Positions 12,201 to 14,329 of a stretch of 64,000 bases of DNA are shown here, in pieces (the stretch's first letter is position 1; each line of letters begins with the position of its first letter). Below the pieces are notes generated by a model, which worked only from the letters and a program-made list of their open reading frames with translations, was not told where the DNA came from and did no database searches. Location of the stretch: NCBI RefSeq assembly GCF_032854445.1, contig NC_088295.1, positions 34,504,510 to 34,568,509 of the forward strand, written 5' to 3'. The stretch is from Liolophura sinensis. Taxonomy: Eukaryota > Mollusca > Polyplacophora > Chitonida > Chitonidae. Both the position numbers and the translations under genes were made by a program.

Positions 12201-14329
12201 ATGGACAAACCATCTGAAAAAGTAGAAACTGAATATTCCTGCTACAATTACATGTATACTGGCTTAAAACAATGGACCAGGTGTCCCAAACATTAGAACA
12301 ATTAGAGTATTCCTGATCAACCCAAGTATTTGTAATTTCGAATTGAAAAAGATTTGGGCTTATGTCATGGATCAGCTGACTAAACTAAAGCATAGTCCTG
12401 GTCAGCGCCAACTGATCTCTGGTCAATAAGATCATAGGTCTGACTCCAGCTCTTGCTGGTTTGAATGTGGCTGCTTAGTGAAGTTTGGCAGGGTACTACG
12501 GGCACTCCAGTTTGTTCCACCTATTAACCTGACCATCGTCTTTCCTTCCTGTGTCTGCTCACCTCTAAGACAATGTAAAACCGGTCTTCCGTCTCCAGAA
12601 CTTGATACAGTTTACAGATGTGCTGATGACACAACTCCTTCATGGCGTTAATCTCTGTCTTCACTCGTGGTAAATCCTCCTGTGAAACACGAACAGACAA
12701 ACTACAACTGCTAACAGATTGACAGACAAGTGACAGGTAAATTGTCCTGTGAAACATGAACACACAAACTACAGCTGCTAACAGATTGACAGACAAGTGA
12801 CAGGTAAATTGTCCTGTAAAACATGAACAGACAAACTACAACTGCTAACAGATTGACAGACAAGTGACAGGTAAATTGTCCTGTGAAACGTGAACAGACA
12901 AACTACAACTGCTAACAGATTGACAGACAAATGACAGGTAAATCGTCCTGTAAAACATGAACACACAAACTACAACTGCTAACAGATAGACAGACAAGTT
13001 ACAGGTAAATTGTCCTGTGAAACATGAACAGACAAACTACAACTGCTAACAGATTGACTGACAAGTGACAGGAAAATCATCCTGTAAAACATGAACACAC
13101 AAACTACAACTGCTAACAGATTGACAGACAAGTGACAGGTAAATCGTCCTGTGAAACATGAACAGACAAACCACAACTGCTAACAGGCTGACAGATAAGT
13201 AACAAGGTAAATCATCCAGTGAAACATGAACAGACAAACTACAACTGCTAACAGACTGACAGACAAGTGACAGGTAAATTGTCCTGTGAAACACGAAGAC
13301 ACAAACTACAACTGCTAACAGACTGACGGACAAGTGACAGGTAAATCGTCCTGTGAAACACGAACAGCCAAACTACAACTGCTAACAGACTGACTGTGGT
13401 TTTCATTCATACAAACGGTACAACCCAATCTTGCTGTAGCAACAACAGCTAAACTGGAGTACAAAGTATATAAACAGACATCCGGCAAGGTTGCATACAT
13501 ACATTTATTCGCTTAACTAGAAATCAAGCATGCACCACAGGTTTGTTTTATGTGCTTAACAAGTTAGGCCTACATGTAATCAGGGTTATACAAATACACT
13601 TTTAAAAACACTGAACATACCCCGAGGGACTTTTTATCCATAATCTTGATGGCTACCTTCTCTCCTGTCAAGGCATGGTAAGCTAGTTTTACTTTGGCAA
13701 AACCACCTGAATTAAAAATACACAGTTAGATAATTACACTTTATTTATTCTCCTACTGACCATCGAAAATAAACCACTCAGCACTCAGAACATACGATAT
13801 ATTAAATAATGCACAGGTGGAAAACCGGGGGTGGGTGGTGGTGGTTGTGGGCTTGAAACTTAAGTGGGTGAGCTAAGCCTCCCCCTGAAATAATGTTTTT
13901 CAAATAACAACTGCTGAGCAGTTAGAATAAAAATGCTTAATAAATAATGGACAACATGCAGTTTATCTTGGATTTATCACAATTTTTTTCACCAGAAATC
14001 ACATAAATTGCCTCTCCAGTGAAATATATGGTGAGAGTATTTGCTGCCTCAGCTCCCCCCCTGCCCAAATTTTATAACATTCTGCCACTCCTGTAAAGGC
14101 TTCATATAGAAATAAATGCAGAGTTCTATGCAGTATGTATAAAAATGTACTGTATTATGACAACATAAAATTGTGATTTGTAATAAATTTCTTAAAATCA
14201 AGATAGACATGTTGTATCCATTGCTGGATGGGAACAAGTCAATGATATTGCTGAGTGGTAGCAAATCTCACCTGAGCCAATTGTTTCCCTCAGGTGATAC
14301 AAGCCCTTCAGTTCTGTGTATTGAGACAT
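3296..14329 (-). CDS. MELK: Maternal embryonic leucine zipper kinase (MELK), complete, 15 coding exons
   Basis: MELK is an AMPK-related Ser/Thr kinase of the cell cycle and early embryo. Exons, in transcript order: 14329-14272, 13706-13621, 12679-12563, 11796-11653, 10823-10755, 10163-10071, 9717-9619, 8474-8307, 7735-7652, 7328-7215, 6916-6643, 5859-5724, 5180-5024, 4479-4376, 3965-3789, plus the last stop base at 3296. All phases join, giving 626 residues (human about 651). Visible motifs: Gly loop IGSGGFAKV 17-25, VAIK Lys40, HRDLKPEN Asp132, DFG Asp150, T-loop [12 protein letters not shown] with Thr167, all at the human positions as remembered. A UBA-like segment ([13 protein letters not shown]) spans about 282-325, then a low-complexity TP-rich linker, then a C-terminal KA1 domain ([29 protein letters not shown]). 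The start is [15 protein letters not shown]; an acceptor at 14397 suggests the exon begins at 14396 with a short 5' UTR. Three splice boundaries carry local duplications. Confidence 0.95.
3530..3775. repeat. Old interspersed repeat, family C
   Basis: This tract in the last MELK intron resembles 44290-44530 and 44630-44835. Shared blocks include caccaaggctccaca and gaatccacaaattccctgtc, in the same order. The copies are diverged. Family unknown to me. Confidence 0.5.
4887..5023 (-). repeat. 34-bp tandem array starting at the MELK exon-13 donor
   Basis: Read on the - strand, about four units of 34-35 bp begin exactly at the donor GT of exon 13. The first starts GTGAGTACACTCAGGG; the next two start GTGAGAACACTCAGGG. 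The donor-like GTGAG is therefore repeated downstream of the real one; the last unit has lost its GT. Confidence 0.85.
7322..7490. repeat. 169-bp direct duplication, copy 1 (spans MELK exon-10 acceptor)
   Basis: Matches 8598-8766 base for base with a handful of substitutions and equal length. On the - strand it carries the exon-10 acceptor (gccatttcag) and the first bases of exon 10. The other copy lies in the intron between exons 7 and 8. Confidence 0.9.
7892..8094 (-). mobile_element. tRNA-derived SINE with (ATAA)n tail, in MELK intron
   Basis: On the - strand the element runs from a tRNA-like head (GGGGGCCTCCATGG) through a conserved centre (tttcctcccaccat in full copies) to an (ATAA)n tail. 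Flanks ctaatgcatacta (7879-7891) and ctaatgtgtacta (8095-8107) match at 11 of 13 bases, read as an aged target-site duplication. The centre resembles the Nin-DC SINE domain as I remember it; not checked. Confidence 0.8.
8598..8766. repeat. 169-bp direct duplication, copy 2 (decoy exon-10 acceptor)
   Basis: Partner of 7322-7490. It contains a copy of the exon-10 acceptor (gccatttcag|tggaaat) but no exon-10 body, so here the acceptor is a decoy inside the exon 7 to exon 8 intron. Confidence 0.9.
8855..9275. repeat. Old interspersed repeat, family D (copy in MELK intron)
   Basis: The part 9048-9145 aligns with 12228-12320 (shared: attcctgctagaattacat / attcctgctacaattacat and gtgtcccaaa). The part 9150-9275 aligns in reverse with about 26760-26960 (gaatggaccttgaaacaaac against gtttgtttcaaggtccattc). 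Three diverged copies therefore exist in this window. No coding capacity or clear ends seen. Confidence 0.55.
10385..10560 (-). mobile_element. Decayed SINE remnant in MELK intron
   Basis: ctgtgctcaagaatatttca followed by a gtgcaggaaaccaggctgaac block recalls the tail and centre of the (ATAA)n SINE, heavily mutated. Ends uncertain. Confidence 0.35.
12160..12330. repeat. Old interspersed repeat, family D (second copy)
   Basis: Aligns with 9040-9145 as described for that copy; lies between MELK exons 3 and 4. Confidence 0.5.
12667..13395 (-). repeat. 67-bp minisatellite containing the MELK exon-3 acceptor
   Basis: Eleven units: the gtaaat block recurs at 12670, 12737, 12804, 12871, 12938, 13005, 13072 (as gaaaat), 13139, 13207, 13274 and 13341, so spacing is 67 with one 68. 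The first is the true exon-3 boundary (cacag|GAGGATTTACC on the - strand). The others read cacag|GACAATTTACC or close variants. The array therefore multiplies the acceptor and the first 11 exon bases. Long open frames across it are an effect of the 67-bp period, not genes. Confidence 0.95.

Follow-up and report, generated by a model that had tools for sequence, protein, structure and literature searches.

Splice-junction copies in minisatellites of the MELK kinase gene and of kinesin genes in the chiton Liolophura sinensis

Results

A tandem array copies the acceptor of MELK exon 3

The window analyzed here, a stretch of 64,000 nucleotides from Liolophura sinensis (RefSeq assembly GCF_032854445.1, contig NC_088295.1, positions 34,504,510 to 34,568,509), carries on its minus strand a gene for the kinase MELK, in which a minisatellite with a 67-bp unit runs through the border of intron 2 and coding exon 3. 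The coding region, as assembled by exon joining, is intact and comprises 15 exons (3781..14329), with an ATG at 14329 and a protein end reading ...SSKLW*. When 37 residues of exon 3 were compared with solved structures, MELK chains were the top matches (4bfm_A, E 1.8e-11), and a tblastn search with an approximate human MELK query returned pieces from about 14329 to 3791 that reach the C-terminus of the query. Joining the exons at splice sites gave an uninterrupted frame over 13 exons, which was then extended to 15. Coding exon 3 (12563..12679, 117 nt), placed by structure match, tblastn, and frame, runs from its first base at 12679 to its last at 12563 and starts in phase 0 as cacag|GAGGATTTACCACGAGTG, while its upstream partner, coding exon 2 (13621..13706), placed by tblastn and exon joining, ends in ...KKSLG. 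Splicing at 12679 leaves the frame open and yields a product that aligns without gaps with the human query. Judging from these matches, we take the gene to be that of the MELK kinase and, since splicing there gives the intact 15-exon frame, the acceptor at 12679 to be the correct one. Because GATTTACC encodes DLP, which is present at the corresponding place of the human query, exon 3 is most simply the source of the exon bases found in the array and the array their copy.

Tandem Repeats Finder (TRF) places the array at 12669 to 13394, with a period of 67, 10.8 copies, 91% matches, and a score of 1184; an array of this identity and copy number is not a product of chance. As the table of its units and the length of the intron also show, it fills 715 nt of intron 2, which is 941 nt long, and reaches into exon 3, its exon-side edge at 12669 lying 11 nt inside the coding exon. 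This bears out an earlier note on this DNA, which had proposed from the letters that the exon 3 acceptor was copied about ten times in a unit holding the true site and the first 11 exon bases. Eleven acceptor positions on the minus strand are spaced 67 bp apart (one step being 68), namely the real site (k0) and ten upstream copies, here called decoys k1 to k10, whose first exon-like bases are at 12746, 12813, 12880, 12947, 13014, 13081, 13148, 13216, 13283, and 13350.

The decoys read cacag in six cases, tacag in three, and cactg in one (k8), such that YACAG is kept in 9/10 and the AG is lost only at 13216, the decayed copy that the earlier note had already singled out. The 11 exon-derived bases, which are GAGGATTTACC after the cacag of real exon 3, read GACAATTTACC in half of the decoys (k1, k2, k3, k5, and k9), GACGATTTACC in three (k4, k7, and k10), GATGATTTACC in k8, and GATGATTTTCC in k6, which amounts to one mismatch to the real exon in four decoys and two mismatches in six. 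Thus, the description of every copy as cacag|GACAATTTAC was too uniform, even though most copies do keep an acceptor facing the gene. The idea that GAGG in the real exon versus GACA in the decoys might serve as an exonic mark is weakened by the finding that the G at +4 also occurs in 5/10 decoys, leaving only the G at +3 private to the real exon. The units are similar to one another, with a mean pairwise identity among k0 to k9 of 0.905 to 0.933 at lags 1 to 9. At a single column (−11), a G is common to k0, k9, and k10, the outer units, and is not shared by k1 to k8.

Decoy acceptors and the outcome of their use

To compare the sites on their intron side, we built an acceptor matrix from 11 other MELK acceptors of exons 2 to 13. 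The real exon 3 site scored 5.77, and decoys k1 to k10 scored 5.77, 4.0, 1.36, 7.09, 2.68, 7.09, 2.68, −1.66, 7.05, and 4.97, respectively, four of the ten (k1, k4, k6, and k9) thereby equaling or exceeding it. Because so crude a matrix rests on few training sites, the result only says that the intron side does not set the real site apart from the decoys, in line with the earlier description of the sites as nearly identical.

Translation gave a uniform outcome for decoy use. Splicing to any of the nine AG-bearing decoys would place 11 intron-encoded residues after SLG, followed by an in-frame TAG at residue 60, irrespective of the number of units; translation from the position of k8, which has no AG, likewise runs into a stop, in this case at residue 105. 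An isoform that keeps the frame by including three units (201 bases), as had been suggested, is thereby rejected, since its translation meets the stop. Inclusion of a single unit as an exon is also not favored, because donor-like GT sites scoring above 2 on the minus strand of the array are confined to 13394, 13184, and 13171 (3.9 to 5.2). Concerning the upkeep of the decoys, one AG was lost among ten, where a mean divergence of 5.3% would predict 1.03 losses, and for this reason we see no sign that the decoy AG has been either purged or maintained. Structure of the array RNA as a selector of the splice site was rejected as well: folding revealed no excess structure relative to 20 shuffled sequences (z 0.01), 10 of which folded as stably.

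Further repeats and duplications in MELK

A second array of the gene, not mentioned in the earlier note, lies on the donor side of coding exon 13 (5024..5180, minus strand, from exon joining). It consists of 4.1 copies of a 34-bp unit (4884..5023, minus strand, from TRF and exon joining) and opens with the very first intron base of the donor AAA|GTGAGT, the exon border at 5024|5023 coinciding with the start of the array, which holds no exon base at all. The real donor reads GTGAGT and the downstream copies GTGAGA, GTGAGA, GCGAGA, and GTGAAA, with the GT kept in three of four; use of any of these four would lead to a stop 17 to 42 codons past exon 13. Of 140-bp intervals placed at random in the introns of MELK, a fraction of 0.056 touches a junction.

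Three other kinds of sequence were observed in the gene or elsewhere in the window. Intron 7 contains (8598 to 8766) a 95% identical copy of a 169-nt stretch (7322 to 7490, minus strand) that includes the acceptor of exon 10 together with 7 exon nt; the copied site scores the same as the true exon 10 acceptor, 16.88, the best value in the gene, although this score includes the contribution of the exon 10 acceptor itself to the training set. Intron 4 holds a mir-2 precursor in the orientation of the gene (11125 to 11191, minus strand; Rfam RF00047, 55.1 bits, E 4.8e-8), mir-2 being a protostome family and thus pointing to a protostome host, whereas no exact match to miR-71 (its first 17 nt) was present in the window. 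Finally, stretches resembling tRNA-derived short interspersed elements, with a caccaatcaaataaat-like tail, lie at about 7920 to 8100 (minus strand) and at 41150 to 41420; they had no database match and are similar to mollusc elements.

Boundary arrays at three kinesin loci

A search of the genome for the kinesin family gave 132 matches, from which 13 densely matched loci (L025 to L037) were taken, the choice resting on match density and not on the presence of arrays. Three of the 13 contain tandem copies of an exon end together with its donor. In an OSM-3/KIF17-like gene (L026, with L038; C6:81506558 to 81506183, minus strand), whose best structure match is the OSM-3 chain 7a3z (E 1.8e-58, residues 1 to 106 of 115), the last 46 exon nt are repeated three times in steps of 125 bp. 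All three copies read CAG|GGAATG as opposed to the real CAG|GTAACG, the change from GT to GG leaving them dead as donors; the exon end is placed here by the donor, the protein match ending nine residues short of it. The KIF22-like gene (L036; C10:35195022 to 35195362, plus strand; 6nje, E 9e-18) repeats its last 18 exon nt 10 times downstream (at least 13/18) in steps of 30 to 37 bp; the copies continue as far as the locus extends, and the GT is kept in 8/10 of them.

The KIF15-like gene (L035; C9:5672130 to 5672070, minus strand; 4bn2, E 4.7e-22, the alignment ending at the exon's own EAYQ) has three donors 30 bp apart, CAG|GTAAAA, CAG|GTGAGA, and CAG|GTATGA, of which the two downstream ones score 10.5 and 8.2 versus 5.8 for that of the exon itself. 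Because the frame through these copies is open, the choice of donor could add 10 or 20 residues to the protein. At another of the 13 loci (L031, C1:4560500-4563500), two kinesin introns consist mostly of minisatellite with units of 155, 73, and 44 bp; the 44-bp array, whose units have ctctgcag-like ends, stops just short of the acceptor, and no copy of the junction was seen there.

Recurrence of junction sequences within introns

We next turned to the question of whether junctions are favored sites for such arrays, counting 24-mers that recur at 18/24 or better within their own intron in a set of 30 introns (16 from kinesin genes and 14 from MELK). Only 1/60 junction 24-mers recurred at this level, versus 122/1200 from the intron interior and 0/600 from the exon interior. 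The kinesin introns derive from 47 of the 51 matches in the 13 loci, four with several internal stops having been left out, and the 34 neighboring pairs of matches comprise 16 that yielded an intron, 11 that yielded no pair, and seven that were skipped by the gap rule. These junctions were placed by script, some possibly wrongly, and the 24-mer test is blind to arrays in which the copied exon bases are few or absent; moreover, the arrays of the OSM-3-like and KIF22-like genes sit at donors outside the 30 introns, and that of the KIF15-like gene scored 17/24, just below the cut. As for the other arrays of the window (at 28924, 41441, 48641/48772, 55283, and 57652), six-frame translations inspected by eye showed no clear exon in their flanks, and none of the six open frames compared with Pfam gave a match. 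The simplest reading is that the introns are rich in minisatellites, some of which cross a junction; nothing in the tests pointed to a targeting of junctions.

Discussion

Tandem copies of intron-exon boundaries are known from amphioxus as "mirages," minisatellite-like duplications, on the acceptor or the donor side, described in the Branchiostoma gene Adh3 and the globin genes BflGb6 and BflGb9, despite which splicing was, as suggested by reverse transcription-PCR, regular (PMC3087553). MELK resembles these cases in several respects. The 67-bp unit contains the real junction with 11 exon nt, and the 34-bp array contains the donor only; many but not all units keep the splice signal (the AG in 9/10 decoys and the GT in 3/4 donor copies); unit lengths of 67 and 34 bp compare with 10 to 72 bp in Adh3 and 150 to 160 bp in the globins; and the units are mutually similar, as are those of BflGb6 (81 to 100%). 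In the amphioxus globin arrays, the edge units are described as left out of homogenization, of which the G shared at column −11 by k0, k9, and k10 would be a weak echo. The differences from the amphioxus cases are that the gene is another one, that the host is a protostome, whose 96-Mb contig is at odds with the smaller chromosomes of Branchiostoma, that two arrays lie in one gene, and that MELK is known here from genome sequence alone.

There are other parallels. The human CBS repeat c.1444_1467+7, a 31-bp variable-number tandem repeat, extends by its coordinates from coding sequence into the beginning of an intron, whereas CBS 844ins68, in contrast to the MELK array, is a single extra copy, albeit one with population data (PMC2630376). 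Among the Rlec lectins of a river prawn, a crustacean gene family, tandem repeats are variable and alternative acceptors occur as well; unlike in MELK, the repeats are treated as coding in the passages considered, and the acceptors are not said there to be copied by the repeat (PMC7536079). We recognized no further boundary array in a literature search from which most subscription journals were absent. The MELK array is real and clearly belongs to an established kind, here extended to another gene and probably to a further branch of the animals.

How might such an array have arisen, and what does it do to the gene? In our view, it probably reflects minisatellite turnover that runs through splice junctions and is tolerated, with the exon-proximal site being used and misuse giving a stop. 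A segment across the border of intron 2 and exon 3, of about 56 nt of intron tail and 11 nt of exon, would have been duplicated in tandem, the tail bringing along its pyrimidine-rich tract and AG; slippage or unequal exchange may then have extended the array into the intron, with the true junction retained as the unit at the exon-side edge. If the spliceosome, as expected under exon definition, pairs the donor of exon 3 with the nearest acceptor, normal MELK mRNA is most likely still made, because the exon-proximal acceptor would be chosen and transcripts spliced to a decoy would carry an early stop, at the 12th new codon, and would probably be removed by nonsense-mediated decay.

Several observations weigh against this explanation. 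Nearest-neighbor counts reveal no strong order of the units within the 67-bp array. A fraction of 0.148 of 726-bp intervals placed at random in the introns of MELK touches a junction, which makes the overlap of array and junction less remarkable, and part of it could be simple chance. A survey of 294 kb around the window found an exon-like edge score of at least 25 in 2/33 arrays, both of them in MELK, versus 2.6% of random intervals, although this survey is a weak one, with splice and codon models that drew mostly on MELK for their training (both tested junctions were excluded from the matrices, but their exons were kept in the codon model) and that cover simple internal exons only. Lastly, with the open frame of the KIF15-like gene, misuse of a copied donor need not give a stop. 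A bolder version of the same idea, to which we give limited credence, would have minisatellites turning over through junctions genome-wide in this animal and continually making rows of competing splice sites, mostly silent or leading to an early stop; some, as in the KIF15-like gene, could add whole protein units or seed new introns, and intron borders and protein length would shift with the number of units.

Alternatively, splice junctions themselves might start minisatellites, for instance where pausing occurs or R-loops form at exon borders, which would make exon boundaries hot spots. Both of the TRF arrays inside MELK (score of at least 50) do lie at junctions, and boundary arrays occur in 3/13 kinesin loci; we nevertheless hold this to be improbable, given that the recurrence of junction 24-mers was so much rarer than that of the intron interior and that the two regional arrays with an exon-like edge are not clearly above their null. 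More improbable still, in our estimate, are regulated poison acceptors, i.e., decoys kept to divert part of the MELK pre-mRNA into early-stop transcripts and so to tune the level of the kinase. The intact YACAG in nine decoys that all reach one common stop would fit such a role, as would the stop-holding stretch ctgttagcag, which is identical in 11/11 units, but the loss of AG equals the neutral expectation and the acceptor side is not better conserved than the remainder, with a mismatch of 0.061 at −20 to −1 versus 0.040 at −56 to −21. Least of all do we expect an assembly artifact or a collapsed repeat. Unit numbers in arrays are often misassembled, and according to a supplement legend one published mirage was apparently assembled aberrantly in the draft amphioxus genome (PMC3087553); against this, the 67-bp units carry both private and shared changes, the contig measures 96 Mb, the stretch from 12600 to 13700 matches once in the 609-Mb assembly, and arrays of the same kind are present in three other genes.

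Taken together, the arrays resemble by-products that are tolerated in a genome whose introns are rich in minisatellites, rather than a dedicated splicing device. Their presence in four genes of one genome suggests that mirages are spread more widely than the cephalochordates. A row of near-identical native splice sites, which differ mainly in position and in one or two exon bases, offers a natural experiment in spliceosomal choice among near-equals, and boundary arrays of this kind may supply raw material for shifts of introns and for intron gain.
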